From the NCBI RefSeq assembly GCF_016861655.1, contig NZ_BOLN01000002.1:310001-374000 (forward strand): a stretch of 64,000 nt of DNA, given 5' to 3'. This document shows positions 14,969 through 30,290 of the stretch, one piece after another. The position numbers and the translations under genes were made by a program. The stretch is from Levilactobacillus lanxiensis. Its GTDB lineage: Bacteria; Bacillota; Bacilli; Lactobacillales; Lactobacillaceae. Below the pieces are notes generated by a model. That model worked only from the letters and a program-made list of their open reading frames with translations, had not been told where the DNA came from and did no database searches. Within the stretch, counting starts at the first letter, position 1; the number at the start of each line of letters is the position of its first letter.

Positions 14969-15002
14969 AAAAACAGCGCCAGCACGCGAATGCTGGCGCT
15001 GA
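14969..15002 (-). terminator. terminator of the tannase gene
   Basis: GCGCCAGCA pairs perfectly with TGCTGGCGC; on the minus strand the hairpin is followed by TTTTT. It lies about 10 bases after the tannase stop. Confidence 0.85.
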
Positions 15003-15011
15003 ATTATTTTT

Positions 15012-16412
15012 TTACTGACACAACTGATCGATCCAATCAAATAACTCGGGTAAATCATAATCCCCACTGTGGGGCGTGGCCCATGGCATGGCGAAATCGA
15101 CGTCATAACCCTGGTTGCGGAGCTTTGTCGCTAGAATCATTGGAATAGCAAACGAGGTATCCCGGTCAGCGGCCCCGTGACGAATCCGCCAGTGCGGAGC
15201 GACCTGTGACTGCTTCTTTAATAGATAGGTCAACGGATTAACCGCGGCTATCAGGTCGGCATCGGCCAACTGGGCGGGCACCGTCGTGTGCTTTTGGGCA
15301 AACGACGTGAAGTGCCGGGCCGCCGTCAAACGACTACCGAAGAGGTCATTTTCAGGATTGTTCACCGCCAACGCATCAAACGCGGGCACGCTCTTCATTC
15401 GGGTAATGGCGCGCAAATACTGGGGCCAATCAATCCGCGTGACCGTGTGGCCTTTGACAATGACGCCGGCATACTTGGTCACATCTTGTCCGGCATCCAA
15501 TGCGTGTTGGGCAGAGGCCAGCAGTTCGTGGATAATCTGGGTTTTAAAACTGCCCTCGCCCGCCGCGTCCAACGTGAGTGGGTTCCCCGCCTGATCCGTC
15601 AATGCCAAACCATTCAGATACGCCGGAAAGGCCGCACTTAGCTCTGGTGATAGCCGTTGCTCATTGGGGGTCAGGCGTCCGTGAACCGGCGTGCAAATCT
15701 TCCGACCGTTTTCGACCCGAACCTTTTGCCGGTGCCACTGATTGATCCCCTTAAATTGCCATTCGTAGGCGGCATCGGCGTGCTCCAGGTTGTGAATCGG
15801 GCAGTAAGCCGAGACGGCAAAGATATCGTCGGTTGCCGGAGCGGCGCCCAACTCCTGTAGGCGTGTTTCAAAGAAATCGGCGTTGCCACTAGCGCCCATC
15901 AACGCTGACGTGGCGCCGCCCGCACTGGTCCCGTTGGTGATGATACGTTCGGGGTTACCTGGTAACCAGCCGGCATTGAATTTCACGTAACGCACGGCGG
16001 CCTTCATGTCCACGATAAATGCTGGGGCCTTCCCGGTATTCTGGCCCTGGCCATCGGTCGACGTGCGGCCGCGCAAGCCCGCCGAGACCACGACGTACCC
16101 CCGTTGTAGGGCCCGCACAATCGTGTCACCGCGGCTAAAGGCATCCGGATTTTCCGGAAAGTCACGTGGCCCGGGTAAATAGCCCCCCACGGTATTGGGC
16201 ATAAAAATTGGCGCCGTCACCCGCTGGTAGCCGTTGACCGTGCCGCCATGGAAGTAGGCCTCCGGCACAAACACGTTCAACCGTTGAATCGGGTCGACCG
16301 GCATCATCACGTAGCTAATGTCCCTGGACGCCCGGTAGGCCACCGTTTCGGCACCCATCGTCGCTGTCGCCGACTGACCCTGAGTCTCATCGAATCGCAA
16401 ACCTGTTGGCAT
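15012..16412 (-). CDS. tanB: tannase (tannin acylhydrolase)
   Basis: A 466-residue alpha/beta hydrolase that I recognise as a close relative of the Lactiplantibacillus plantarum tannase TanLp1 (TanB). It hydrolyses galloyl esters of tannins and gallate esters. Shared stretches include LNVFVPEAYFHGG, RVTAPIFMPNTVGGYLPGP, the nucleophile elbow ITNGTSAGGATSAL (Ser near residue 163), FAVSAYCPIHNLEHAD and HWRIRHGAADRDTSF. The length matches the intracellular type and there is no signal peptide. The ATG at 16412 has GGAGG at good spacing; the ATG at 16418 is too close. No gallate decarboxylase gene is adjacent. Confidence 0.93.
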   Translation of the reverse strand: MPTGLRFDETQGQSATATMGAETVAYRASRDISYVMMPVDPIQRLNVFVPEAYFHGGTVNGYQRVTAPIFMPNTVGGYLPGPRDFPENPDAFSRGDTIVRALQRGYVVVSAGLRGRTSTDGQGQNTGKAPAFIVDMKAAVRYVKFNAGWLPGNPERIITNGTSAGGATSALMGASGNADFFETRLQELGAAPATDDIFAVSAYCPIHNLEHADAAYEWQFKGINQWHRQKVRVENGRKICTPVHGRLTPNEQRLSPELSAAFPAYLNGLALTDQAGNPLTLDAAGEGSFKTQIIHELLASAQHALDAGQDVTKYAGVIVKGHTVTRIDWPQYLRAITRMKSVPAFDALAVNNPENDLFGSRLTAARHFTSFAQKHTTVPAQLADADLIAAVNPLTYLLKKQSQVAPHWRIRHGAADRDTSFAIPMILATKLRNQGYDVDFAMPWATPHSGDYDLPELFDWIDQLCQ

Positions 16413-16499
16413 CCTCATTCCTCCATTTCAAGTCATCTTCGTTGGCTCTACTTTAGTGGAAATGCCGGTCGGACGCAATTCATTTGCCGAACCGCGTGG

Positions 16500-16949
16500 C
16501 TAATGACGCGGTAGATCCTGATTTTGCGTTTGAATCAAGGTGATGAGTTGCCACCGCTCCGTGGGCAACGGTGGCCGCGCAGGACTGTCAGCTGGTCGAC
16601 AAACCTTCGTCGGCCAACTGAGTTGATAGTCCAGGGAAAGCTCGCTGAACAGGTTCAGCTGATGGCCCCGATAGCCTTTGACATAACTGTTCACTCGGCC
16701 GTTAAAGTGGATCACATCACCGCGCTCTAGCTGACCTAGCCGCTGAAAGCCCTTGGTCAGGTTGAACCAGAGGTGGTCCGTTAATAATTGCTCGGTGGGA
16801 ATCAGCCGCACCTGCCGCAATAAAATCGTTGGCTCCTCCCCCTTGTACCCCGACTTGATCCCGTACCGTTCAAAAATCCCCTTGAATGGGTGTCGCTCCA
16901 TGTTCCCTAACTCTGCTAACTTCTGGCGCTGACTTGGCCGTGCCTTCAT
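16500..16949 (-). CDS. small protein of unknown function, possibly OB-fold
   Basis: A 149-residue basic, soluble protein. The central part (LLRQVRLIPTEQLLTDHLWF, then QLERGDVIHFNGRVNSYVKG) alternates beta-strand-like segments and resembles a nucleic-acid-binding OB fold, but I would not claim this without a profile search. The C-terminus is Pro/Arg-rich. GGGGC precedes the start. It may share a transcript with the tannase 80 bases downstream. Confidence 0.65.
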   Translation of the reverse strand: MKARPSQRQKLAELGNMERHPFKGIFERYGIKSGYKGEEPTILLRQVRLIPTEQLLTDHLWFNLTKGFQRLGQLERGDVIHFNGRVNSYVKGYRGHQLNLFSELSLDYQLSWPTKVCRPADSPARPPLPTERWQLITLIQTQNQDLPRH

Positions 16950-17127
16950 GGCTGTCGCCCCCTTTTAGGTTAACTCCGTAATTAATCGCCAAATATTTTT
17001 TTGAATTTAAAAATAGTTTGGCCGCCACCTTTACCAACCCAGTGCCGTTCACTAACCGTCGAAGCTGGCATCCCGCAACGGTCGCCCCTGCTCGCAACCT
17101 ATTTGTGAAAATCACGAGCCACATTCG

Positions 17128-17156
17128 TTGTTGTAAACGCTGTCATCAGGTAGAAT
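17128..17156 (+). promoter_or_regulatory. APC permease promoter with cre site in the spacer
   Basis: TTGTTG (17128-17133) and TAGAAT (17151-17156) are 17 bases apart. TGTAAACGCTGTCA (17132-17145) matches the CcpA cre consensus TGWAANCGNTNWCA at every position and sits between the two boxes, which implies carbon catabolite repression. Confidence 0.75.
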
Positions 17157-17226
17157 GACTAGAGGAATTTCACAAGTACATACGACCCGAAACCATTATT
17201 TAGTTCAATGAAAGCGAGCGATAACT

Positions 17227-18651
17227 ATGCAGAATTTGTCCCGTCACATTTCGTTTCCCCGCCTCCTGATTTTGGGTGCGTCCAGCGTCATCGGCAGTAG
17301 CTGGATCTATACCAATGGTATTTTCTTCGACAAGTACGGCGCTGGGGGCGAAATCTTTGGCTTCATGCTGGCAACGTTCATCACCGTGCTGGCCTCCCTG
17401 TCCTTTGCGGAGCTCTCCTCCATCTTTCCGCGGAGTGGCGGGCCCGTGGTGTACAGTTACTTGGCCTTTGGCAAACGTTGGGGGTTCGCGACCGGTTGGG
17501 CGATCCTGGGGGCCTATTTGAGCGCGCTATCCTTCTACGTGACGGCGTCGAGCATGTTGCTGGCGACGCTGGTCCCCAAGATTTCGACGGGACCAGGCTA
17601 TACGATTGCTGGGGCGCACGTCTCCCTGATGGAACTGGCGATTGGGGTGGCGTTCACCCTCTTCATTTTCGCGTTAAATATCCGCGGCACCAAGCTGACG
17701 GCGGGTGTTCAGGCGGTCCTATTTATCGGCCTGGTCATCCTGGGTGGCGCGCTGGTCGTCACCGGCTTTACGCAAGGGAGTCCGAAAAACTTCTGGCCGG
17801 CCTTCGCCACCGGGAATGATCCCTTAGCCAATGTGGTACGGTTCGTCCTGCCCGCCATGACCTTTCTGACGGGGTGGGAGGTCGTGACCATTCTGGCCGA
17901 GGAAGCGGCGATGCCCCCACGGAAAATTGGGAAAGCTGTGGTCGGCGCCATTCTGCTGGCGGCCAGCTACTATATTATCGTGCTACTGGCCAGCGCGTGG
18001 GTCTACCCGTGGCAGAAGACAGCGACCTTCAGCATGGGCTCCATCACGGCATTTACCGAGGCCGGCTTCCCGCTGTTAGGAACGGCGGCCTATCTGATTG
18101 CCTTTCTGGGCCTGCTGACCAGCTTTATCGGCCTGTTCACGGCGGCGCCCCGACTGATTTTATCGCTGGCGCGAGCGGGCCTGTTGCCACCCAAGTTTGC
18201 CGAAATTAATGAAAAACACAATACGCCGGTCAACGCGACGGTGTTGGTCCTGGTCTTTGCGGTCGGCTTCGGCTGGTTGGGCAAGGGCGCGATGACCTAC
18301 TTCCTAGACCTCGGTGGCTTCTTCGTGGCCATGGCCTGGGCAATCACGGCGGTCGCCCTCTGGCGAATTCGCCGGACTTACCCGACGCTCAATGGTGGTT
18401 TCCGCCTGAAACGCCTGTGGCCCAGCCTGCTGGGTGGCCTGTTGGCGGTCACGATTGCGGTCGCAACGCTCTATCCCAAGTCTCCGGTCGCGCTGGCCTG
18501 GCCGACGGAATATATCATGCTGGCGGTCTGGATTGGCCTGGGCCTGCTGTTCTACGCGCTTGGCCGTAAGGAACACCAGCCCAAGGATCAGGCGCTCCAC
18601 CACCTGTTGGGCGAAAAGGAATTTCAACGCTTAAAGGATTTGGAAAAATAG
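17227..18651 (+). CDS. APC family amino acid permease
   Basis: A 474-residue permease with about 12 membrane helices. The first helix region LILGASSVIGSSWIYTNGIF and the following FAELSSIFPRSGGPVVYSYL are typical of the amino acid-polyamine-organocation superfamily (a Pro-Arg-Ser-Gly-Gly sequence after helix 2). The C-terminal tail is short and charged. Codons are strongly GC-ending compared with neighbours. The substrate is unknown. The cre site in its promoter suggests use when good sugars are absent. Confidence 0.85.
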   Translation: MQNLSRHISFPRLLILGASSVIGSSWIYTNGIFFDKYGAGGEIFGFMLATFITVLASLSFAELSSIFPRSGGPVVYSYLAFGKRWGFATGWAILGAYLSALSFYVTASSMLLATLVPKISTGPGYTIAGAHVSLMELAIGVAFTLFIFALNIRGTKLTAGVQAVLFIGLVILGGALVVTGFTQGSPKNFWPAFATGNDPLANVVRFVLPAMTFLTGWEVVTILAEEAAMPPRKIGKAVVGAILLAASYYIIVLLASAWVYPWQKTATFSMGSITAFTEAGFPLLGTAAYLIAFLGLLTSFIGLFTAAPRLILSLARAGLLPPKFAEINEKHNTPVNATVLVLVFAVGFGWLGKGAMTYFLDLGGFFVAMAWAITAVALWRIRRTYPTLNGGFRLKRLWPSLLGGLLAVTIAVATLYPKSPVALAWPTEYIMLAVWIGLGLLFYALGRKEHQPKDQALHHLLGEKEFQRLKDLEK

Positions 18652-18656
18652 CCAAA

Positions 18657-18691
18657 AAGACGGCCACCTCACCATGGGGTGGCCGTCTTCA
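18657..18691. terminator. bidirectional terminator
   Basis: AAGACGGCCACC pairs with GGTGGCCGTCTT. T-runs follow best on the minus strand. It separates the convergent permease and hydroxyacyl-CoA dehydrogenase genes. Confidence 0.8.
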
Positions 18692-18699
18692 CGTTCAAT

Positions 18700-19644
18700 T
18701 TACTTGTCTTCATCCTGTTTCAATAGTTTTAGCAAATCGCGGTCCCGCTGCGCCACAATTTCAGCGCCGGCATCCCCGTCCCAGTCAAAGAACCCGTGAC
18801 CGGTCTTGAGACCGAGGTCGTGGTCGGCCACCTTTTTCGCCAATGCGGGGTCCTCGCCCTGCGTTGCGCCGAGGTCGGCGTAGAGATACTTGCTGATGTT
18901 GTCGAAGATATCGAGGCCACCCAAGTCGGCGCTGGCAACGGGCCCGACCAGGCTCCAGCGACGGCCCAGACTGTATTTGATAATGTCATCGACGGCCGCG
19001 GGTGAGGCGATGCCGGCGTCGATGATGTGCAGGGCTTCCCGCATGACGGCCAACTGGATGCGGTTGCCGACGAAGCCTAGTGATTCGCGCTTCAGGCTAA
19101 CGGCGTGCTTGCCAATGCGGTTCATCAGCGCCGTCGTCAGGTCGACCGTGGCTTGGTCGGTCTGCTTGCCGGGAACGACTTCGACCAGCGGCATAAGTTG
19201 TGCCGGATTCCAGAAATGGGCCACGACAAAACGGTTCGGGTGCTGCAACACCGACTGAATGGCGGTCGGACTGAGACCAGACGTGTTGGTCGCCAGAATG
19301 GTCCCCGCGCTGACCAGGGACTCGACGCGTTGCCAGACTTGCTTCTTGACGTCGAGGTCTTCGATGATGGATTCAATCACGAAATCGGTGCCGGCCAACG
19401 CAGCAGTGTAGTCGGTCGTGGGCGTGATGCGGTCCAGGATGGTCGCGTCGTCTTCGTGTAGCAGGCCGGCCTCACGGAAGGTGGCGAGGTCATGTTTAAT
19501 GGCAGTCAATCCTTGGTCAAGCACAGTATCGCTGGTGTCCAGTAAGTGAACCGGATACCCCTTCATGGCAAATTGTAGCGCCGTAGCGTGCCCCATGGTC
19601 CCTGCGCCAAGGTTGGTAATGGTCTTGATATCTTCTAGGTTCAT
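18700..19644 (-). CDS. 3-hydroxyacyl-CoA dehydrogenase family protein
   Basis: A 314-residue NAD-dependent dehydrogenase with Rossmann motif LGAGTMGHATALQFAMKG, the middle motif ATNTSGLSPT, and the C-terminal helical domain starting at VVAHFWNPAQLMPLVEVVPG and LGFVGNRIQ. It acts on the 3-hydroxyl of an acyl-CoA or a related hydroxy acid (lambda-crystallin/gulonate dehydrogenase members share this fold). Lactobacilli lack full beta-oxidation, so a non-CoA substrate is quite possible. GGAGG precedes the ATG at 19644; 19659 would place the start on the ribosome binding site. Confidence 0.85.
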   Translation of the reverse strand: MNLEDIKTITNLGAGTMGHATALQFAMKGYPVHLLDTSDTVLDQGLTAIKHDLATFREAGLLHEDDATILDRITPTTDYTAALAGTDFVIESIIEDLDVKKQVWQRVESLVSAGTILATNTSGLSPTAIQSVLQHPNRFVVAHFWNPAQLMPLVEVVPGKQTDQATVDLTTALMNRIGKHAVSLKRESLGFVGNRIQLAVMREALHIIDAGIASPAAVDDIIKYSLGRRWSLVGPVASADLGGLDIFDNISKYLYADLGATQGEDPALAKKVADHDLGLKTGHGFFDWDGDAGAEIVAQRDRDLLKLLKQDEDK

Positions 19645-19723
19645 TTGAAACGCCTCCAAATAAGTTGTTAGTTGGTTTGCGTTCTCTTTCTGCTCTCTGG
19701 GTTTAGTTTAGCATGGATTTAGG

Positions 19724-21121
19724 CTAGTTATCGTCAATTGCATCAAAAATAACGGAATGAACTAACGCAGCGGTACTCTCAATTCTCCGCTTCATCGTCG
19801 ATTCATTGTAATCGGTGTTTAAATATGGTTTCACTTTGTTTGCTAATTCAAGCTTGTCGTCTAACGAGAGTGCAACCGTTCTTTTCTTAGGATTATCGAG
19901 GAAAAACTTGAAGACAATCCGGAAAGGCTGATGTTGCAATAGCAGCCCAATCAACGATAATTTTCCTTCATTCGTATCCAGTTCCCGTAATAGCTTCCGT
20001 CCGTTATGGTTAATGACATAAGTGTTTTTCACTTTTGTACACAGTCCCAAATACCAAACTAAATTACCGTAATAGTCCCCCTGGCGCTCTGCGTAGCCAA
20101 AGACACTGGCAATATCTTGTTTGTGTAAGCCCTGACTCGCAATATCATCATCGTGATAAGCATCATTTAGTAGACTGAGCGTCTTGACCAACTTAATGTA
20201 CGAATTGGCTTGTGGGAAAACAATTTCAACAGGTTCGGTAACAACTTTGCTGGACTTATAAATATCAACAACTTTTTTCTCAGTAATTGGTGAATTATCT
20301 AAGAATCTAAATGACCTCTGCCTAACCATCTGAATGGTCGAGTAGTTATGGGGATCGGTAAACTCGTACTCATTAAAGTAGTAATTTCCACCAAGTAAGG
20401 ATAAGAACGCTGGACGTACAGGCTTTGTGACTCCCCGATGATGAATCACATAATAAGGATAGTAGAGCTGACGAACTAAGAAATCAGCTTCTGGAACAGC
20501 TTTGGCTTCAATAATAACAATTGACTGATTGTTCTCAAAGGTTGCGTCAATCTCAATTTGCGCACCGTTCACAGTTAACTTCTGTGGCCGATCAACTCCA
20601 ATGTTAAACTCCATTGGGCCAGACCCCATCCGTCCATGCAGTACGGGCAGAAACTGACTACCACCATCATCCAATGCCTTGTTTAACATCCCACTGGAAA
20701 AGGCCGCGTCAATATAGGTATTCTCTGATGGGATGGTATCCGGCGAAATAGTCTGAATATCCGGAAAGCGAATCAACTCTGGCTGTTTAGTCTCATCAAT
20801 CGCCAAATTTGCATAAGCATTGAATCTTCCCAAGCGATACGTATAGATCTTATCAACATACCCCAATGGCATGATGTTGATGTAATTTTTAATATCCTGT
20901 ACACCCGCTTTAAACGGCGTTGGCAAGCTATACGAACGGTCGAACTTTGCTAAATTACGGACATCTGGACCATTTAGCTGGTTACTAAAATCCTTTAGTT
21001 CTGAGGCAGTGATATCAAAATACCCTTTTTCACCAATAGACTCTGTAATCTCATCGCCAACTGTGTCGAATATTCTTTGCCACACATCATTTTTATTTGC
21101 TTTATTGGTTCCACGTGCCAT
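19724..21121 (-). CDS. type II restriction endonuclease-like protein R1 (PD-(D/E)XK)
   Basis: A 465-residue protein. The core reads QIEIDATFENNQSIVIIEAK (Asp192, Glu205, Lys207), a PD-(D/E)XK nuclease site, followed by DFLVRQLYYPY whose Gln may be the extra motif of Mrr-like and related enzymes. The C-terminal third (ERQGDYYGNLVWYLGL, then YVINHNGRKLLREL) looks like a winged-helix domain. The protein R2 at 22390-23673 is homologous along its length. It is not recognisably DpnII, MboI or Sau3AI. The ATG at 21121 with GGGGAG is preferred to 21142. It diverges from methyltransferase M2 and lies in an AT-rich island. Confidence 0.75.
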   Translation of the reverse strand: MARGTNKANKNDVWQRIFDTVGDEITESIGEKGYFDITASELKDFSNQLNGPDVRNLAKFDRSYSLPTPFKAGVQDIKNYINIMPLGYVDKIYTYRLGRFNAYANLAIDETKQPELIRFPDIQTISPDTIPSENTYIDAAFSSGMLNKALDDGGSQFLPVLHGRMGSGPMEFNIGVDRPQKLTVNGAQIEIDATFENNQSIVIIEAKAVPEADFLVRQLYYPYYVIHHRGVTKPVRPAFLSLLGGNYYFNEYEFTDPHNYSTIQMVRQRSFRFLDNSPITEKKVVDIYKSSKVVTEPVEIVFPQANSYIKLVKTLSLLNDAYHDDDIASQGLHKQDIASVFGYAERQGDYYGNLVWYLGLCTKVKNTYVINHNGRKLLRELDTNEGKLSLIGLLLQHQPFRIVFKFFLDNPKKRTVALSLDDKLELANKVKPYLNTDYNESTMKRRIESTAALVHSVIFDAIDDN

Positions 21122-21403
21122 TATTATTAACTCCCCGACCATCTGTGCCTTAGTTCCATCAATTACAATCCATTATACATGAATCCCAAATTCGCCTCCC
21201 AAATTCCACTTGTCACCAGCTCAAAAATTAGATGAAGGTAGCTGTTTTTTGAGTACCACTAATTATCCAGTCGAGTCCTCTATACAGTAGAGCTTCCTGA
21301 TTAAAGTGTTCCATATAAGTTCAAACGTACGTTCTCGAGACAACTTACACCCACTGTCATATACTTAGGCAATTCAATCTGAATTCATACTAAGAGGTGG
21401 CCT

Positions 21404-22177
21404 ATGAGACAACCATTCTATCAAAACAATCTAATTCGCTTATATCAAGGTGATTCGCTTCAACTCATGCAAAAAATGGCAGACAATAGCATTGATGTCA
21501 TTGTCGCTGATCCACCATACTTTCTTTCCAATGGTGGATTCTCAAATCGCGGAGGAAAGAAAGTTAGCGTAGATAAAGGCGCTTGGGATCAGGTTAATGA
21601 TAAATATGAAACCTCTGAAATTTTTAACGATTTGTTCTTGAAAGAATCTAGGCGTATTCTAAAACCTCATGGTACCATCTGGGTATTTGGTAGTTTGCAC
21701 AATATCTATGAGGTTGGCTATCTGATGAAGCAACACGATTATCGCATTCTCAACAATATTACTTGGCAAAAATTAAATCCGCCACCCAACCTTAGCTGTC
21801 GAATGTTTACCCATTCTACTGAGACAATCATTTGGGCCAGAAAATTTGCCAAACAAAAGCACTACTACAATTATGACCTAATGCGTGAGTACAATCACGG
21901 CAAACAGATGAAAGATGTATGGTCAACCCCCGTTATTAAACAATCAGAGCGTAAATTTGGACGCCATCCAACACAAAAACCGCTTGCAATTATCACAAGA
22001 ATAATTGAAGCCTCAACCACTGAAGAAATGCTAGTGCTTGATCCATTTATCGGTAGCGGAACCACAGCTGTTGCCTGCCAATTACTTAATCGACACTGTA
22101 TCGGAATTGATTTATCACCAGAATACCTAGAGATCGCTAAGCGACGTATCCATAATGAAGAAGAAACACTGTTTTAG
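21404..22177 (+). CDS. DpnA-type DNA adenine methyltransferase (M2)
   Basis: A 257-residue beta-class amino-methyltransferase. Catalytic motif DPPYFLSNGG lies at residues 36-45 and the AdoMet motif LDPFIGSGTTAVACQL near residue 213. Stretches such as NNITWQKLNPPPNLSCRMFT and HSTETIIWARKF and KQMKDVW are strongly like DpnA (M2.DpnII), which methylates GATC and can act on single-stranded DNA; HinfI-type enzymes are cousins, so GATC is likely but unproven. AGAGGTGG precedes the ATG. It is transcribed away from R1 and towards R2. Confidence 0.88.
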   Translation: MRQPFYQNNLIRLYQGDSLQLMQKMADNSIDVIVADPPYFLSNGGFSNRGGKKVSVDKGAWDQVNDKYETSEIFNDLFLKESRRILKPHGTIWVFGSLHNIYEVGYLMKQHDYRILNNITWQKLNPPPNLSCRMFTHSTETIIWARKFAKQKHYYNYDLMREYNHGKQMKDVWSTPVIKQSERKFGRHPTQKPLAIITRIIEASTTEEMLVLDPFIGSGTTAVACQLLNRHCIGIDLSPEYLEIAKRRIHNEEETLF

Positions 22178-22315
22178 TGAATGACAGATTTTAGAATTAA
22201 TTAAGATATTGTTCAAGTACTAAGAAAGATGTGAGTAAAACCTATCTTCTAAAATAGTGTATGTTTAATTGGAGAACCATTTCACAGGAAAATGATACTC
22301 ATGTTTTTTTTTGAT

Positions 22316-22349
22316 ACAGTAAAGGCCCGGCATGCCGGGCCTTTACTGT
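22316..22349. repeat. perfect 34-base palindrome between convergent genes
   Basis: The 17-base arm ACAGTAAAGGCCCGGCA is followed directly by its exact reverse complement. It has a T-run on its 5' side on the plus strand and none after it on either strand, so it is not a standard intrinsic terminator. It is far more GC-rich than the island around it and lies between M2 and R2. Confidence 0.8.
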
Positions 22350-22389
22350 CAGTTCAACTTTTAATGGTTCTAGCTTTAGTCGATAAACG

Positions 22390-23673
22390 TTATTCTAACG
22401 TAGCTGTATCTAATATCCAAGTTATCCAATTTTTGGCTGTAAAATTACGTCTATGTAGTGTTGATTTTCCACCAACACCACCATACTTACGTATCACATC
22501 ATCGATAAATTCATTTCTGAATTCCTGGTTAATCAAAAAGTCTTTAAAAATTAGATTAATAGCTTTACTCGACAACATATTTTGAATAATTATCAAATTT
22601 CGATCGTTTGAATTAGGCATTCTCGCAACCTTACGTCCAAGTCTCGTTAATTCAAACACATGATTGACACTATCCTTTTTTGCAAACCCCAAATAACGCA
22701 GTGCATTACCATAGTAGTCACTTTGACGTTCATCAAAACTGTAAATTTCTGCAATTTGATGCTTATTTTTAGGAGTTCGCAAAACATCAAGTAAATCAAG
22801 AACACGTGTAAAAGTATCAGCTTGAGGAAAAGATACTTCCTGAGGAGTCACATCAGCACTTTCCTTGCTGATCCGCTTTATATCATCAAGATTAATGTCC
22901 AGTGTTTTGTCGACAATGAAGTTTACTTGTTTTACTTTTTCAATGCTCGAATAGTTATTCAATTCATTGAACTTGTAAACATGAAACGCATAAATACCAT
23001 CAGAATAAGTAAAGAAAATGGGTATAACACGCTTTCCAGTTGCTAGGTTCTCAAACAATCTGTACGGATAATACAGTTGACGAATAATAAAGTCATTTGG
23101 AATACGATTCTTAGCCTCAATTACAACTAACTCATTAAGTGTCTCAAATCCAGCGTCAATTTCTACTTGGCTATTGTTTACACTAAAATGATATGGTTTC
23201 TGACTGCCCATCATACTAATATCATAGTTAATCTGTCCAGACTTTAAACGTCCCGTTATTGTACTTACTGCAGGAGTACTGACATTACCCAAAACCATAT
23301 CGATCATACCCGTCATCTGCGCTATGTTTAGTGCCACTGCCTCCGAACTTACAGTAAAATCATCGAAGGAACGTACCCAATCAGTCATTTTCACACTAAT
23401 CGGACGGATCTCCTTATAGTTAAGTTCTTGGTAAGCCCTAAACTTGCCAATAACATACTCACCGCGACTATCTGGCAAAATAGAGAGCTTGTGAGATATA
23501 AATTTTTTAGGGCGGGCAGATTTCCAATCAAACTTTGTCATTAGTCTTGGCTCACGAAACTCCTTAATTTGATTGGCACTTATTATAAATTTCCCCTTAC
23601 TCTCAACCTCATTAGTAATGTCATATTTTTCAAATAGCTTATCCCATGCGTTGTCCAGTTTACTTTCAGCCAT
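22390..23673 (-). CDS. type II restriction endonuclease-like protein R2 (PD-(D/E)XK)
   Basis: A 427-residue homologue of R1. The nuclease core QVEIDAGFETLNELVVIEAK (Asp173, Glu186, Lys188) is followed by DFIIRQLYYPY, aligned with R1 without gaps. Shared later motifs are ERQSDYYGNALRYLGF and the ending STLHRR. Identity outside the core appears modest, so this is an old duplication or two acquisitions, not a recent copy. It starts 11 bases after the Dam-type methyltransferase M1 on the same strand, so M1-R2 is a classical restriction-modification pair. Strongly AT-rich. Confidence 0.75.
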   Translation of the reverse strand: MAESKLDNAWDKLFEKYDITNEVESKGKFIISANQIKEFREPRLMTKFDWKSARPKKFISHKLSILPDSRGEYVIGKFRAYQELNYKEIRPISVKMTDWVRSFDDFTVSSEAVALNIAQMTGMIDMVLGNVSTPAVSTITGRLKSGQINYDISMMGSQKPYHFSVNNSQVEIDAGFETLNELVVIEAKNRIPNDFIIRQLYYPYRLFENLATGKRVIPIFFTYSDGIYAFHVYKFNELNNYSSIEKVKQVNFIVDKTLDINLDDIKRISKESADVTPQEVSFPQADTFTRVLDLLDVLRTPKNKHQIAEIYSFDERQSDYYGNALRYLGFAKKDSVNHVFELTRLGRKVARMPNSNDRNLIIIQNMLSSKAINLIFKDFLINQEFRNEFIDDVIRKYGGVGGKSTLHRRNFTAKNWITWILDTATLE

Positions 23674-23684
23674 AATTCATTACC

Positions 23685-24554
23685 TTACTTATTAGACTTA
23701 TAATCGTAATTCATAATCAACACTTCATCAACTTTACCTCTGCCAGCCGCATTAGAGTTAATTGAACGGGTAGCCTTAACAATCTGAGTAGTGTCTTTAT
23801 ATGCCGAGTACAGTTCTTCAATTAACGGGACCCTCGAATTAGACATCATAGCTCTAACACCCTTATTAGTTAGAACATCAAAAGACTCTTTCAACCTAAG
23901 CTGTTCATCTTCACCAAATCCATTTAACGTATATCCAACAAAACTTTGTTTGTCATCAGAGACCGGTGCATATGGTGGATCCAAATACACAAAATCGCCC
24001 TTCTTTGCCAAACTAATTGCCTTCGAATAATCACCTGTAAGTATTTTTACATCATTAATATTCAAGTAGTGTGAAACTGCACGTAAAACCTCCTCATTTA
24101 CAATAGATGGATTCTTATACCTACCATATGGCACGTTAATTTGATTTTGTGAATTCACTCTAAATAAGCCATTAAATCCGGTCTTATTCAAGAAAATAAA
24201 TCTAGCAGCCTTTTCAACATCACTCTTTTGGGAAAGCGTGTTATCTCTATCCCAAGAACGCATCTGATAGTAATACTCACTACTATTATTGGCTTCGTGT
24301 TCCTTAAGTAATTCAATTAATTCATCAACATTATCCTTCACAGCTATGTATGCCGTTATCAATTGCCCGTTAAAGTCATTAACGGTTACCTTAGAATACT
24401 GCATACTCAAAAATACTGCCCCACCGCCAACAAAGGGTTCATAAAATCTCTTTATACCGCTCGGCAAATACTTTTTTATCTCTGGCAGTAACTGCCTTTT
24501 TCCACCCGCCCATTTAACAAATGGCTTAACCAGTGGATTCTTTCTTGTCGTCAT
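23685..24554 (-). CDS. Dam/DpnM-type DNA adenine methyltransferase (M1)
   Basis: A 289-residue alpha-class adenine methyltransferase. N-terminal AdoMet site FVKWAGGKRQLLPEI, FYEPFVGGGAVF, a mid-region FNGLFRVNSQNQINVPYGRY and catalytic DFVYLDPPYAPVS are those of DpnM and Dam, whose target is GATC. The ATG at 24554 follows AGAGG. First gene of an M1-R2 operon. The partner nuclease is unlike the usual DpnII/MboI partner. Confidence 0.9.
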   Translation of the reverse strand: MTTRKNPLVKPFVKWAGGKRQLLPEIKKYLPSGIKRFYEPFVGGGAVFLSMQYSKVTVNDFNGQLITAYIAVKDNVDELIELLKEHEANNSSEYYYQMRSWDRDNTLSQKSDVEKAARFIFLNKTGFNGLFRVNSQNQINVPYGRYKNPSIVNEEVLRAVSHYLNINDVKILTGDYSKAISLAKKGDFVYLDPPYAPVSDDKQSFVGYTLNGFGEDEQLRLKESFDVLTNKGVRAMMSNSRVPLIEELYSAYKDTTQIVKATRSINSNAAGRGKVDEVLIMNYDYKSNK

Positions 24555-24768
24555 ATTATTAATTCCTCTTTCAAGAATAATGCAAACATCAGTTCTCAAG
24601 GTATCTATCCTGCTATTGTATCGTGATAGTAGTCATCCGTCAATTTCAAACGTTGGCACTAAAAGTTCTCATCCAAATTACCACCCTACTAATCATAAAA
24701 GTAAAATAGTTAGTAAACCTAGATTGCTCCCAAAGTATATCATTTGGCTTCAAGGGGCATTGTTTTGC

Positions 24769-24774
24769 TATAAT
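24769..24774 (+). promoter_or_regulatory. extended -10 promoter for the DUF1801 gene
   Basis: TTTGCTATAAT (extended -10) lies 33 bases upstream of the start codon. A weak TTGGCT lies 19 bases before it. Confidence 0.55.
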
Positions 24775-24806
24775 AAACCCAAAACAACCAGAAAGAAGGC
24801 CCCAAA

Positions 24807-25154
24807 ATGACCCCCATCCCCACCTACCTCGCCGCAGTCGCCACAGAACATCGTCCCCAACTAATCGACCTGTATCACTTCCTGCAAAACCAGCTCCCAG
24901 ACGCCACCGAAAAACTCAGCTACGGCATGCCTGCCTTTTTCGTTGCCGGCAAGCCGGTCATTTACTTTGCTGCTATGAAACACCACCTTGGACTGTACCC
25001 GACGGCCGCACCCATTGCCCATTTTGCCGATGACCTTACTAACTTCAAGGCCTCTAAGGGTGCTATCCAATTACCCTATGATCAACCTTTGCCCACCGGC
25101 CTCATCGCCCAGCTGGTAGCGTTTCGCGTCGCTGAAATTCAAATTGTCGACTGA
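24807..25154 (+). CDS. DUF1801 family protein
   Basis: A 115-residue protein with the DUF1801 (YdhG-like) pattern: EKLSYGMPAFFVAGKPVIYF then AAMKHHLGLYP and SKGAIQLPYDQPLP. The family is cytosolic and of unknown biochemical role. GAAGG precedes the ATG. It marks the right border of the restriction island, where GC content returns to the local average. Confidence 0.85.
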   Translation: MTPIPTYLAAVATEHRPQLIDLYHFLQNQLPDATEKLSYGMPAFFVAGKPVIYFAAMKHHLGLYPTAAPIAHFADDLTNFKASKGAIQLPYDQPLPTGLIAQLVAFRVAEIQIVD

Positions 25155-25183
25155 CTTAATTGTCTGGTCAGCCGGCTTTTTTT
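25147..25183 (+). terminator. probable terminator after the DUF1801 gene
   Basis: CTGAC pairs with GTCAG and the sequence runs into GCCGGCTTTTTTT. The stem is short, so this is a weaker call. Confidence 0.45.
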
Positions 25184-25284
25184 CACGCAATTGGCACCTT
25201 ACTAAAATGTTTACCCCAAAGTCTAAAAAAATTCACGATTAGCGACCATACTGAGCGCAACTTAAATTTGGAAGGATGATTCTG

Positions 25285-25908
25285 ATGCAAATCTTTGATG
25301 TCACCGATGAGCGCTTTCGCCCATACGGCCGGATCGTTCACGCTGGCGACCTGGATGAACTGCTCACCAACCTCGCTGCCGTTCCCTATCCCGCTGAAAG
25401 TACGAAAGCCGTGGCCAACAAGACTTCCCTCGCCGATACCAAAGCGGCCCATCGCTTGGAGCAAACCTTCTTCGGCGGTCTGCCGACCGAGACCGGCTAC
25501 TGCATCGGGCACAATCACCTTCTGAATCGCCTCGAGTTCCACAGCAGTTCTGAAATCAACCTCGCCGCCACCGACCTGGTCCTGCTGTTGGGCAAACGCC
25601 AGGACATTCACGACGACCTGACCTACGACACCGACCAGCTGGAAGCTTTCTTGGTTCCTAAAGGCACTGCCATCGAAATCTACGCCACCACCCTGCATGG
25701 TGTGCCCTGTGAGGCGCTCGGCCAAGATGGCTTCCGTTGGCTGGTCATGTTACCGGCCGGCTCCAACCGCGACCTGGAATTTTCCGTCAACCATGATGAC
25801 CCCCTGAATCGGCTCCTCTTCAAGACCAACACCTGGCTGATTGCCCACCCGGACGCGCATATAGACGGCGCCTTCGTTGGCCTGGTCGGCGATAATGTTC
25901 AGGTTTAG
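25285..25908 (+). CDS. DUF4867 family protein (cupin-like)
   Basis: A 207-residue protein that starts MQIFDVTDERFRPYGRIV and contains RLEFHSSSEINLAATDLVLL and AFLVPKGTAIEIYATTLHGV. This is the layout of DUF4867, which resembles the ureidoglycolate lyase/cupin fold with His and Glu as possible metal ligands. The family often occurs near sugar genes; here alpha-galactosidase is two genes away. The ATG at 25285 has GGAAGG at correct spacing; 25276 abuts it. Function unknown. Confidence 0.7.
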   Translation: MQIFDVTDERFRPYGRIVHAGDLDELLTNLAAVPYPAESTKAVANKTSLADTKAAHRLEQTFFGGLPTETGYCIGHNHLLNRLEFHSSSEINLAATDLVLLLGKRQDIHDDLTYDTDQLEAFLVPKGTAIEIYATTLHGVPCEALGQDGFRWLVMLPAGSNRDLEFSVNHDDPLNRLLFKTNTWLIAHPDAHIDGAFVGLVGDNVQV

Positions 25909-25934
25909 CTACCATTCAACTAAAGATTCATCGC

Positions 25935-25980
25935 AGAAAAAATCGTAAACTGATGACATCCCAGTCCACGATTTTTTCTA
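25935..25980. terminator. bidirectional terminator
   Basis: AGAAAAAATCGT pairs with ACGATTTTTTCT, with an inner ACTG/CAGT stem. It serves the convergent DUF4867 and pcp genes. Confidence 0.8.
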
Positions 25981-25998
25981 TCCCCATTTAGCAAAATT

Positions 25999-26646
25999 CT
26001 AATTCAACGTTCCCTCAATCGTCGCCACATCACCCTGCCCGTCGCGTTCCACGATGGCCGTGATGGCCGCCGTCATGCCCCGAACATCATCCGCCAAGGA
26101 CAACGACGGTTGGCCTGGCCTAGTCGTCACCTGACTGGGGAGAAACGGGATGTGCATGAAGCCCGCCCGCAACTGCGGGAATTCCGTGGCGCGCAGGTAC
26201 TGGACCTGGTACATGATGTGGTTGCAGACGTAGGTCCCCGCCGTGGTCGACACGCTGCTCGGCAGCCCCGCCGCCCGAATGGCCCGGGCCATCGCCTTGA
26301 CCGGCAGTTGAGTGAAATACGCCGCGGCCCCGTCCGCCTGAATTGGCTGGTCAATCGGCTGTTGCCCGGCATTATCCGGGATCCGCCCGTCATCCAGATT
26401 GATGGCGACCCGCTCCGGCGTCAAGGCCGCGCGCCCACCAGCCTGGCCAATGTTCAAGACGACATCCGGTTGTTCCGTCAAAATGGCCCGCCGCACCACC
26501 GTCGCGCATTTACCAAACACCGTGGGAATCTCCAGCTTCACGATTGTTGCGCCAGCAATCTTATCTGGTAGCTGGTTAACCGCGGCAATCGCTGGATTCA
26601 TGGGCTCACCGCCAAATGGATCAAACCCCGTAACTAAAATTTTCAT
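25999..26646 (-). CDS. pcp: pyrrolidone-carboxylate peptidase (pyroglutamyl peptidase I)
   Basis: A 215-residue cysteine peptidase (family C15) that removes N-terminal pyroglutamate from peptides in the cytosol. It begins [18 protein letters not shown], has the catalytic-Glu region [12 protein letters not shown] and the catalytic cysteine in [10 protein letters not shown], and a catalytic His in GFMHIPFLP. Length matches the family. GGGGCC precedes the ATG. It is monocistronic between two terminators. Confidence 0.92.
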
Positions 26647-26709
26647 ATCCTCGGCCCCCTATTATGAGTATTTGATGAGAATTATACGCTAGTTCAGACA
26701 AAATTGGAC

Positions 26710-26752
26710 AAAAAATCAGGCAACCAACACAACGTCGGCTACCTGATTTTTT
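26710..26752 (-). terminator. terminator of the alpha-galactosidase gene
   Basis: On the minus strand AAAATCAGG pairs with CCTGATTTTTT; the hairpin is symmetrical and may work in both directions. Confidence 0.75.
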
Positions 26753-26759
26753 AATTCAC

Positions 26760-28979
26760 CTATTTCACCGCGTCAATCACAAACAACCGTGAGCTAAAGT
26801 CAGCCGACTCTTCGACACCCTCCGTTAAAGCCAGGAGGTGCGGAATAAACAGGCCAGCATGCATCAGCTCATCGCCAAAGTACACGTGCTGGTCGCCGGA
26901 CACCCGATACTGTTGGTCGGGCACCAGTCCCCGCAGGTATAGCCGGTTGTAGGCTGGGTTGGGCCGGTTTAAAATTTGGTAGCGCGCCGCAATGGCGTGT
27001 TGGCCGTCGGGACTGACGACCGCCCAGCTACCCACGTTGCCATCCCCGGTAAAGGGATTGTCGATGCGGTAGAACGTGCCTTGCTGGAACAACTCACGGT
27101 GTCGCTTGTAGAACGCCACCTGTTCCTTGATGGCCGCCTTCTCTGCTGGCGAACATTTTGTCACGTCCAGCTCGTAACCCAGGTCGCCAAAGTAGGCTAC
27201 GGCCGCCCGCGTTTCAATCGAGGTGATTCGGCCAGTCTGGTCGTTTGGCACGGCCGAGACGTGGGCGCCCATCATCGCTTGCGGGTATCCGTATGAGGTG
27301 CCGTACTGAATCCGCAGCCGCTCAATGGCATCGGTGTCGTCACTAGTCCAAGCTTGGGGCGCGTAGGCCATCATGCCCAGGTCGAACCGACCACCACCGG
27401 AGGCACAGGATTCGAACAAGACTTCTGGATAGTCCGTGGTCAACCGCGCGTACAGCCGGTAAACGCCCAGCATGTAGCGGTGGGTGAATTCCAATTGCTG
27501 GTCGGCCGTCAGCGTGGCGCTGTAGGCCTCCGTGATGTTCCGGTTCATATCCCACTTGATGTAATCCAGATGGGCTTCCACAATCAATTGACTAATTTTG
27601 CCATAGAGATAATCGACCACGTCCGGGTTGGCCATGTCGAGGACAAATTGGTTCCGTCCTGGTGTCTTCTCGCGGTGTGGCGCCACGACCAACCATTCGG
27701 GATGGGCCCGGTACAGGTCACTATCGACGGAAATCATTTCCGGTTCGAACCATAAGCCAAACTTGAGGTCCATGCCATGAATCTGTTCGGCCAGGTGGGC
27801 AATGCCGTTCGGCAACTTGGCGGCGTAAACGTCCCAGTCCCCTAACGACGTGGTGTCGTCGTCCCGGTGGCCGAACCAGCCGTCATCGAGAACAAACATT
27901 TCAATTCCTAATTCCTTGGCATCACTGGCAATCGCCGTCAGCTTGGCTTCATCGAAGTTAAAGTAGGTGCCTTCCCAGTTGTTGATCAGCACGGGACGAG
28001 GTTCTTGCGCAAACCGGGGATTGACCAGGTGATGCTGATAGAAGGTCCCCATCTGCTGACTCAGTTGATTCAGACCGGCCGACGTGTAACTCAGGATGGC
28101 TTCCGGCGTTTGGAAACTGCTTCCCGCCGTCAGCTGCCAGCCAAATTCGGTCGGGTTGATGCCGGTCAAAACTCGGGCGGCCCCATAGGAATCCACCTCA
28201 ATTTGGTCCAGGAAGTTCCCGGAGTAAACCAGGTTCAGGCCAATCGCTGCCCCCTGATCTTCGGTCGTTTCGGGTCGTGCCAAAGCGATGAAGGGATTCT
28301 GTTGCGGACTGGATGCGCCCCGCAAGCTGCCAATACTTTGCGTGCCGCTGTGTAACGGCGACCGCACCAGGTGACGTTCCCGAGCCCAACTCCCAGAAAA
28401 CTGGAGCAGGTCGTACTTCGCATCTGGCAGGTCCAGTTGCAGGCTCAAGGCGCGGTCCAACGTCACCGTTTGCTCACCCTGATTTTCAAATTTAGCACTC
28501 CGGACAATCACGTCCTGGTTAGGGAACACGGCGTAGCTCAGCGTCAACGTGACGCCGTTCACTGCATCCTTCAGGGTGACCAGCAGCGTTTGCGCGTCGT
28601 CGTCCGAATCGTCAAAGGTCGCTGGCAAATCAACCAGTCGCTGCTTACCATCAATAATTTCATAACCCTGATACTGAAATTCACTGATACGGCTGCCATC
28701 CGGTCCGCTAATCTGAAACGCCGGGTCGCGATAATCGCCCTTGCCCAGGCTAGCAAACTCCTGCTTCAACGTTTCCGGCTGGAAGTCTGGTTTATCCAAC
28801 CGCCAGGCCGGCGCGGCCCCGTGAACCTCGCGGACCATCAGCTCAGGATAAGCGGCTTGGTCGTGGATACGGGGGCCGTAGTAAAGCTGGCCCAATTCCC
28901 CATTTTCCATCACATGAAAGACATAACTACTGTGCGCCGTTTGCAGGTGAAACTGGTGCTGGTTAACTAAGATTGACAT
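26760..28979 (-). CDS. alpha-galactosidase (GH36)
   Basis: A 739-residue cytosolic glycosidase of family GH36 that releases terminal alpha-galactose from melibiose, raffinose and stachyose. It has an N-terminal beta-sandwich domain, then FVLDDGWFGHRDDDTTSLGD, the nucleophile aspartate in DYIKWDMNRNI and the acid/base aspartate in TSDDTDAIERLRIQYG. Length is that of the tetrameric AgaA/RafA group. GGGAG precedes the ATG at 28979; an in-frame ATG at 29045 lies beyond the cre site. Transcribed divergently from the PucR-type regulator. Confidence 0.93.
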   Translation of the reverse strand: MSILVNQHQFHLQTAHSSYVFHVMENGELGQLYYGPRIHDQAAYPELMVREVHGAAPAWRLDKPDFQPETLKQEFASLGKGDYRDPAFQISGPDGSRISEFQYQGYEIIDGKQRLVDLPATFDDSDDDAQTLLVTLKDAVNGVTLTLSYAVFPNQDVIVRSAKFENQGEQTVTLDRALSLQLDLPDAKYDLLQFSGSWARERHLVRSPLHSGTQSIGSLRGASSPQQNPFIALARPETTEDQGAAIGLNLVYSGNFLDQIEVDSYGAARVLTGINPTEFGWQLTAGSSFQTPEAILSYTSAGLNQLSQQMGTFYQHHLVNPRFAQEPRPVLINNWEGTYFNFDEAKLTAIASDAKELGIEMFVLDDGWFGHRDDDTTSLGDWDVYAAKLPNGIAHLAEQIHGMDLKFGLWFEPEMISVDSDLYRAHPEWLVVAPHREKTPGRNQFVLDMANPDVVDYLYGKISQLIVEAHLDYIKWDMNRNITEAYSATLTADQQLEFTHRYMLGVYRLYARLTTDYPEVLFESCASGGGRFDLGMMAYAPQAWTSDDTDAIERLRIQYGTSYGYPQAMMGAHVSAVPNDQTGRITSIETRAAVAYFGDLGYELDVTKCSPAEKAAIKEQVAFYKRHRELFQQGTFYRIDNPFTGDGNVGSWAVVSPDGQHAIAARYQILNRPNPAYNRLYLRGLVPDQQYRVSGDQHVYFGDELMHAGLFIPHLLALTEGVEESADFSSRLFVIDAVK

Positions 28980-29030
28980 GATTGTGCTCCCTTCAATTGT
29001 TTTAACTGCTGTACATATCGTAGCATATTT

Positions 29031-29044
29031 TGTAAGCGCTGACA
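29031..29044. promoter_or_regulatory. cre site upstream of alpha-galactosidase
   Basis: TGTAAGCGCTGACA matches the CcpA consensus TGWAANCGNTNWCA at all positions. It lies 52 bases upstream of the GH36 start, consistent with catabolite repression. The rest of the 291-base divergent region shows no other clear element. Confidence 0.8.
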
Positions 29045-29270
29045 TCTCGAATCAGACAACTCCTGAGTGATGCAACGATGGCCACAGTCATTCTGAAATC
29101 GAAACGGCTCCCCGCCAGCCAGCGTCGTATCAGTGGACAAGTTGCCCACTAAATGCTAAGCTGTTTTTCAGCGAAATATCGCGACAACGCTGTTATATCA
29201 AGTGTTTAGCGGTAACAATGACCACTAAAAAACAAAATCAATAGGCACTCTGCACACCGGAGGAATAATT

Positions 29271-30290
29271 TTGACAAACGAAGCATTTTTACTGAACGCC
29301 ATTCAATGTGCCTCACTAGACCCACTCATGGCTTTGATTGGTCATTACTTAGAACAGCCCGTCTCAATCGTGGATCAAGCCGGCACGATTATCAGCCAGA
29401 GTTCAACTGCCGCCAGCCAATCTGATCAGCCACGTACCCGGACCCTGTTAGATCCCCAAGCGCTGCATCCCTGGTACCTGGTTCAGCCGCAAGCCCAAGC
29501 CATCCCCGCAGACCACCTACGGCTCGTCTTGCAGGTCATCAACAACTTCACCGACCGGTACGCGCTCAATCCCAATCAGCGTGAGGTCAATGCGGTGCTG
29601 GCGCAACTCCTGCAGGCACCCGCTCAAACGGACGCCCGGCTGCTCCGATCACTGGTCACCGACAACATCGTCTGCGTCACGGTGACCGCCGAACCCGGAA
29701 CCGCCCATCCAGCTGCGTTGGTGACCGCGTTACAAACCTTAGCGGCACCACTGCCCCTGACCGAAACGCCGGCCGGCTTGGTCCTGCTCCTGTCGGCCAG
29801 TCAGTTGCCCCGAGCTCAGGCCGTTTTGACCAAGCTGGGAAAGCAGACCCACCACGTCTTCTTCATTTCTGAGCCGTACGAAGATGTGGCCCAGACGCCC
29901 GAATTTCTCAGCATCTGTCGCCAGGCCGAGCAGATTGCACGACGCTTAGGGACAGTCACGGTGCTCAACCCCACGCAAAAGTACAACATCTACATCATTT
30001 TGGACCACGTGGATAACAGTACCCTCTTGAAAAACACCATGTGCACGCAGCTGCTCACGTTACGGCAGTACGACGAGGCCCACCATGCCGCGCTCTTCCA
30101 CACACTGGCCGTCTATTTGGAAAACGACTGCCACGTCACCAAGACGGCGGCCAAGCTCAATTTACACCGCAACAGCCTGGGCAAACGGCTCGCCAAGATT
30201 CAAGACTTGATCGACATCGACTTTGACAATCCCGACCGAACCTTCGGCATGCGTCTCAGCTACCGCCTGTTCAATTACCTAGCACTCTAA
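29271..30290 (+). CDS. PucR/CdaR-type transcriptional regulator
   Basis: A 339-residue regulator. The N-terminus (MALIGHYLEQPVSIVDQAGT) resembles the sensor start of PucR/CdaR-like proteins. The C-terminus has the PucR helix-turn-helix: ALFHTLAVYLENDCHVTKTA then AKLNLHRNSLGKRLAKIQDL. It starts with TTG, justified by GGAGG at 29259-29263. It diverges from the alpha-galactosidase and is followed 20 bases later by a HxlR-like gene, so it may control local sugar genes; the ligand is unknown. Confidence 0.8.
   Translation: MTNEAFLLNAIQCASLDPLMALIGHYLEQPVSIVDQAGTIISQSSTAASQSDQPRTRTLLDPQALHPWYLVQPQAQAIPADHLRLVLQVINNFTDRYALNPNQREVNAVLAQLLQAPAQTDARLLRSLVTDNIVCVTVTAEPGTAHPAALVTALQTLAAPLPLTETPAGLVLLLSASQLPRAQAVLTKLGKQTHHVFFISEPYEDVAQTPEFLSICRQAEQIARRLGTVTVLNPTQKYNIYIILDHVDNSTLLKNTMCTQLLTLRQYDEAHHAALFHTLAVYLENDCHVTKTAAKLNLHRNSLGKRLAKIQDLIDIDFDNPDRTFGMRLSYRLFNYLAL

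Follow-up and report, generated by a model that had tools for sequence, protein, structure and literature searches.

Two type II restriction-modification modules, most likely both GATC-specific, apparently combined at a defence hotspot of Levilactobacillus lanxiensis

In pneumococcus DpnM protects double-stranded DNA, whereas DpnA methylates single-stranded DNA (PMC3573125). The DpnI, DpnII and DpnIII systems are alternative GATC cassettes found at one pneumococcal chromosomal site (PMC12707154). The island described here shares a DpnM-type and a DpnA-type methylase with the DpnII system and with the related system of plasmid pSRQ700, but its nucleases belong to another family, are longer and are two in number, and the gene order is different. 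SsuDAT1I of Streptococcus suis reportedly comprises two methylases along with a pair of isoschizomeric nucleases for GATC, which are said to be relatives of DpnII and LlaDCHI. It resembles the present island in its number of nucleases and methylases, two of each, and in its GATC target (here presumed), and differs in that its nucleases are DpnII/LlaDCHI-related.

The window, i.e. the whole stretch of 64,000 nucleotides of L. lanxiensis DNA that was analysed, carries four open reading frames, R1, M1, R2 and M2, all of them present and open. The features of the island and of its flanks are the following:

17227..19659: left hotspot flank with an APC-type permease gene (plus strand) and a 3-hydroxyacyl-CoA dehydrogenase-like gene (minus strand)
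19724..21142, minus strand: R1, DUF6996-DUF6997-DUF7226 nuclease (ORF, Pfam and PADLOC matches; likely start at 21121, giving 465 aa)
21404..22177, plus strand: M1, DpnA-type N6-adenine methyltransferase of 257 aa (ORF; divergent from R1)
22178..24764, no strand: segment with R2-M2 and its borders, apparently in place of the M3 gene of relatives (comparison with genomes G337 and G317)
22316..22349, no strand: GC-rich inverted repeat, perfect over 17+17 bases and preceded by a T run (sequence, by eye)
22390..23673, minus strand: R2, DUF6996-DUF6997-DUF7226 nuclease of 427 aa (ORF, Pfam and PADLOC matches)
23685..24599, minus strand: M2, DpnM/Dam-type D12 methyltransferase (ORF; likely ATG start at 24554)
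24807..26646, no strand: right hotspot flank with a DUF1801 gene, a cupin-like gene and a pyrrolidone-carboxylate-peptidase-like gene

The functions given for the left-flank genes, and the cupin-like and pyrrolidone-carboxylate-peptidase-like names on the right, are what we take these genes to be; DUF1801 came from the family scan. The start of R1 was placed by inspection of the sequence and by comparison with a 465-aa relative (P0121). The likely ATG of M2 is preceded by a Shine-Dalgarno-like AGAGGA (by eye). M2 lies 11 bases upstream of R2, and the two genes likely form one operon, as the earlier note had proposed. The inverted repeat reads as a putative terminator between the convergent M1 and R2 genes. 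GC content is 35-41% in the island and 56-57% in the flanks. An Rfam scan of the window gave no match.

R1 and R2 are homologous (31% identity across 410 residues, E 4e-58). Both matched PF22515, PF22518 and PF23871, in this order and above the Pfam cut-offs (cut-off 27 bits; DUF6997, DUF7226 and DUF6996 scored 160, 52 and 45 bits in R1, and 189, 99 and 105 bits in R2). The PD-(D/E)XK-type residues are E197, D199, E212-A-K214 and Q225 in R1 (472-aa numbering), and E171, D173, E186-A-K188 and Q199 in R2. In alignments whose rows were hand-picked from the best 120 matches of each nuclease, D199, E212, K214 and Q225 of R1 were invariant in 34/34 sequences, and D173, E186, K188 and Q199 of R2 in 39/39. 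The AlphaFold models were confident (mean pLDDT 93.7 for R2 and 89.2 for R1). The description of the locus as two full-length homologous PD-(D/E)XK nucleases around a DpnA-type methyltransferase, given in the earlier note, is borne out by the open reading frames, the identity and the intact residues.

The same note had called the nucleases not recognisably DpnII, which holds: PF04556 (DpnII/MboI) did not match R1 or R2 up to E 1. They are, however, not unrecognised. The PADLOC model PDLC03513 'Type II restriction enzyme' matched both, and NCBI uses the name 'type II restriction enzyme' for several of the best 120 relatives of R2 and for some of the listed relatives of R1. Because these annotations exist, the family is not novel, and the suggestion of a novel nuclease family fails on the three Pfam domains and PDLC03513: the family of R1 and R2 is large, already labelled, and not DpnII. 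For R2 3403 relatives were found at E <= 0.001; the close clade of R1 is small, with 17 members among the 120 matches listed, after which identity falls to ~33%. A literature search found no mention of DUF6996, DUF6997, DUF7226 or the three Pfam accessions. Nucleases with ~60% identity to R2 are encoded by plasmids of Lactiplantibacillus, Pediococcus and Levilactobacillus and also occur in Fructilactobacillus lindneri.

In the tree R1 and R2 fell into different supported clades: R1 groups with the nucleases of G337, G400 and G327, and the nearest relatives of R2 are two-gene cassettes. The tree label 'noD12' (L059, L069, L083 and WIN_R1) means that no D12 gene lies closer than 1.6 kb to the nuclease gene; in L059, L069 and L083 one is present further along. 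The placement of row L113, whose branch is very long, is unsure.

M1 shares 57% identity with the second methylase encoded by pSRQ700, whose nuclease is a PF04556 DpnII enzyme. M2 scored above the cut-offs of PF02086 (D12) and TIGR00571, gave 297 bits against the DpnM structure 2dpm, in agreement with its earlier assignment to the Dam/DpnM type, and shares 49% identity with the DpnM-type methylase of pSRQ700. It has kept K9, L122, R124 and P134, which we take to be the GATC-contact residues of EcoDam. The window's genome has no PF02086 match other than M2. M3, the D12 methylase of relatives, has 315-316 residues and is 34% identical to M2. A whole-genome search with M3 returned M2 alone, and tblastn of positions 15001-30000 of the window for an M3 remnant gave, besides M2, matches no better than E 3.7.

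At the window's chromosomal site the genomes G337, G400 and G327 carry R1 and, divergent from it, M1 followed by M3. In the sister species G337, which has no R2, R1 is 97% identical to that of the window. The DNA of the two is 92.7% identical over 15001-21135 and 90% over 21317-22176, and the match stops at the end of M1; in G337 M3 begins directly past the M1 stop codon, whereas M3 is absent from the window and R2-M2 comes after M1 instead. On the right, similarity to G337, in which other genes come after M3, restarts at 25194 (92.9%), and similarity to G317 restarts at 24765. The left edge of the segment 22178..24764 is the end of homology to G337, and its right edge is the restart of homology to G317. 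Repeats common to the two borders of R2-M2 are at most 9 bases long. The gene order is M1-M3-DUF1801 in G400 and M1-[R2-M2]-DUF1801 in the window; R2-M2 therefore occupies the place that M3 has in G400. Judged from these comparisons, R2-M2 appears to have taken the place of M3, the double-strand methylase that belonged to R1. R1 and M1 are under purifying selection (dN/dS against G337 0.05 and 0.029, respectively, Nei-Gojobori), so neither resembles a relic across the divergence from G337.

The distribution of the nuclease family was surveyed with PF22518, which was found in 33/397 genomes of the family, 10/35 of the genus, 15/395 of the order and 14/398 of the phylum (these are overlapping samples, and the window's genome is counted in every one). 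Regions were fetched from 50 of the 52 other genomes listed with a match (all except G864 and G1037), and six of the 20 plasmid records that matched R2 were opened; together with the window this made 57 loci. A full-length nuclease (at least 380 residues) was present in 50 of them; in the other seven the gene was fragmented or shorter, the contig ended, or the match was only weak. All 50 loci with a full-length nuclease also had a D12 methylase match, which in L052 was a 110-residue piece, and nine had a DpnA-type methylase (>150 bits) as well. The Dam/DpnM-type neighbour of R2 is M2; for R1 such a neighbour was seen only in relatives, the partner there being M3 or a DpnM-type enzyme. The island is thus like other loci of the DUF6996-DUF6997-DUF7226 family in the domains of R1 and R2, the PADLOC model and the D12 partner, and unlike them in having two full-length members, the sole case among the 57 loci. 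Three candidate two-nuclease genomes (G038, G101 and G278) were rejected; their double matches were adjoining pieces of one gene region.

R1-type nucleases without R2 were found in G337, G400, G327 and G217, each with one PF22518 match in the whole genome. In many loci an R2-type nuclease was accompanied by one Dam-type methylase and by no second nuclease of the family. In Lp16C and F. lindneri an R2-type nuclease and an M2-type methylase make up a two-gene cassette. Two-gene cassettes resembling R2-M2 are carried by plasmids; a recombinase gene was found within ~0.5 kb in four of the six opened plasmids, and in the other two there was none.

Evidence on specificity came from the partners of the related enzymes. 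Four plasmid relatives of M1 were opened, and each belongs to a DpnM-DpnA-nuclease cassette whose nuclease is a PF04556 DpnII enzyme; the three that were aligned are 54-57% identical to M1. In G398 a 70% relative of M1 adjoins an ORF matching PF04556 positions 69-277, and the contig stops 175 bases past this partial DpnII ORF, so that the system is readable in part only. G671 (L088), the only genome common to the order's DUF6997 and DpnII lists, has a DUF6997 nuclease divergent from an operon of a DpnA-type methylase, an M3-type D12 methylase and DpnII. Ten of 19 DpnII places were read, with short flanks. A D12 methylase was present in six of these ten loci; the best of three D12 queries was M3 in four, including G671, and the pSRQ700 DpnM type in two. 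An M1-type methylase (>150 bits) was present in eight of the ten. At the window's hotspot M3-type methylases accompany an R1-type nuclease in three genomes and an R2-type nuclease in four others that are closely related. Since methylases such as the M3 type swap nuclease partners, one common target, most likely GATC, is indicated. All parts of the island point to GATC, because relatives of M1 and M3 adjoin DpnII nucleases and M2 is DpnM-like, and GATC as their predicted target is well supported by context. As a counterpoint, a nuclease with a longer, GATC-containing site such as that of AlwI would also be protected (PMC4081073). GATC avoidance was dropped as evidence of specificity: GATC is scarce throughout the genus, so that its scarcity is not diagnostic.

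In our judgement the island is probably a composite of two type II restriction-modification modules, most likely both GATC-specific, at a defence hotspot, with nucleases that share M2 (together with M1). The resident module would be R1 divergent from M1-M3, as it still is in the sister species, and would consist of the DUF6997 nuclease R1, the DpnA-type M1 and, in the role of DpnM, the D12 methylase M3. A mobile two-gene M2-R2 cassette would have landed directly downstream of M1, and M3 would have been lost. Incoming double-stranded DNA with unmethylated GATC would be a substrate for R1 as well as for R2. By analogy with the Dpn enzymes, M2 would methylate double-stranded GATC in the chromosome and protect it against both nucleases, and the DpnA-like M1 would methylate single-stranded, newly taken-up DNA. 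This agrees with one reading of the earlier note, two neighbouring systems with related nucleases, and adds to it the absence of M3, whose position is now occupied by R2-M2. A stronger version, which we think rather unlikely, is that the island has become one interdependent unit by methylase takeover: M2-R2 would have displaced the resident methylase, R1 would now depend on M2, and loss of M2 would expose the cell to two nucleases simultaneously. R1 and R2 would then be kept as non-redundant, for example by differing preferences for flanking sequence or methylation state, or because a phage protein inhibiting one would leave the other active.

The identity of only 31% between R1 and R2, their different supported clades, the divergent pairing of M1 with R1 and the position of M2 just upstream of R2 would also suit two independent neighbours of different specificity, R1 protected by M1 alone and R2 by M2. 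We consider this improbable, because the DpnII-adjoining relatives of M1 and M3 and the DpnM-like M2 all point to GATC, and pneumococcal DpnA is a single-strand methylase (PMC3573125). R1, moreover, has no D12 methylase of its own and would be dangerous unless M2 or M1 covered its sites. Loss of the cognate double-strand methylase would be expected to select for loss of the nuclease, and R1 might accordingly be a decaying leftover after the loss of M3, silent or inactive; yet it is full length and has kept all family-invariant catalytic residues, which makes decay very improbable. Its dN/dS of 0.05 argues in the same direction, though as a value for the whole divergence from G337 it is compatible with recent silencing.

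The other proposal of the earlier note, an R1-R2 heterodimer, would make the pair an obligate Type IIT-like enzyme, in which each subunit cuts one strand and a single site is served by both methylases. Two homologous but unequal nucleases and two methylases within one island speak for it, and Type IIT systems generally come with two methylases (PMC4081073). Their sites are asymmetric according to the same source, however, whereas the Dam/DpnM-type partners suggest the palindromic GATC. The heterodimer is not supported, because R1-type and R2-type nucleases each occur without the other: R1-type enzymes in G337 (97% identical), G400, G327 and G217, and R2-type enzymes in many loci whose only other component is an M2-type methylase, the closest tree relatives of R2 being two-gene cassettes. 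We regard it as extremely improbable.

Two-nuclease GATC systems have precedent in SsuDAT1I, as reported, and in G671. The G671 island also has four genes, two nucleases and two methylases, but its nucleases are of two families (DUF6997 and DpnII) and its D12 methylase is of the M3 type; phage records searched with the G671 nuclease gave no match. New, as far as our searches show, is a same-family nuclease pair resulting from the replacement of M3 by R2-M2, a change that comparison of sister species makes visible; a literature search found no paper on an R1-M1-R2-M2 island. If the composite reading is true, the island is a snapshot of restriction systems of the same specificity competing and merging, in which the methylase was swapped between sister species and a nuclease formerly held in check by M3 was retained. 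It would offer a testable case of whether one system's methylase can sustain the nuclease of another, and would tie the large DUF6996/6997/7226 nuclease family, so far known by DUF numbers only, to GATC by context.

The right-flank marker gene of the hotspot was found in 30/35 genomes of the genus, and eight of the 30 have DUF6997 systems at this place (the window, G327, G337, G400, G135, G159, G250 and G292). Of the 22 other marker-bearing genomes 20 were read (all except G111 and G405), and both the permease and the marker were found in seven of these 20. In one of the seven, G406, permease and DUF1801 genes are separated by next to nothing, and G398 showed the right-hand flank only. The hotspot of G317 holds GmrSD_N and MrcB_N/NOV_C genes (family scan), and the hotspot proteins of G395, G399, G381 and G234 are visibly similar to those of G317. 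In G347 the site is occupied by genes for a C5-methylase, for Vsr and for two nucleases of MutH/Sau3AI-like type, the Sau3AI label being our presumption. One site in one genus holds R1-M1-M3, an R2-type nuclease with M3, an M1-type methylase with DpnII, and a C5-methylase with MutH/Sau3AI-like nucleases. It is like the pneumococcal DpnI/DpnII/DpnIII locus in having alternative cassettes at one chromosomal site (PMC12707154), but the two cassettes of the window appear merged, not exchanged, and the site also has GmrSD_N and MrcB_N genes.

The chromosomal site of the window island, a hotspot between the permease flank and the DUF1801 flank, is also occupied in G347 (L134:3734-8658), where two nucleases of MutH/Sau3AI type flank a C5-cytosine methylase and a Vsr gene. 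The two nucleases are 29% identical to each other, and the island is a second case of two related nucleases at this site. In the sister species G337 genes matching PbeC and PbeA (PADLOC) adjoin R1-M1-M3 (L085:982-5273), and represent another defence-type system at the hotspot. In G400 R1 and M1 are separated by two small ORFs (L083:6366-7552), one of which has a weak, sub-threshold match to PDDEXK_11.

A DpnA-D12-DpnII operon with a divergently oriented DUF6997 nuclease was found in G671 (L088:4427-8585); these nucleases, which belong to two different families, apparently have methylases in common. At the G201 locus (L069:8171-8958) transposase-like fragments, named by eye, separate a distant DUF6997 nuclease from an M1/M2 pair, which is convergent like that of the window but does not enclose R2.

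Among the 16 four-base palindromes GATC was the rarest relative to expectation in the window (1-64000; observed/expected 0.53). It was also lowest in G317, and likewise in the pooled genus members lacking the DUF6996-DUF6997-DUF7226 family.
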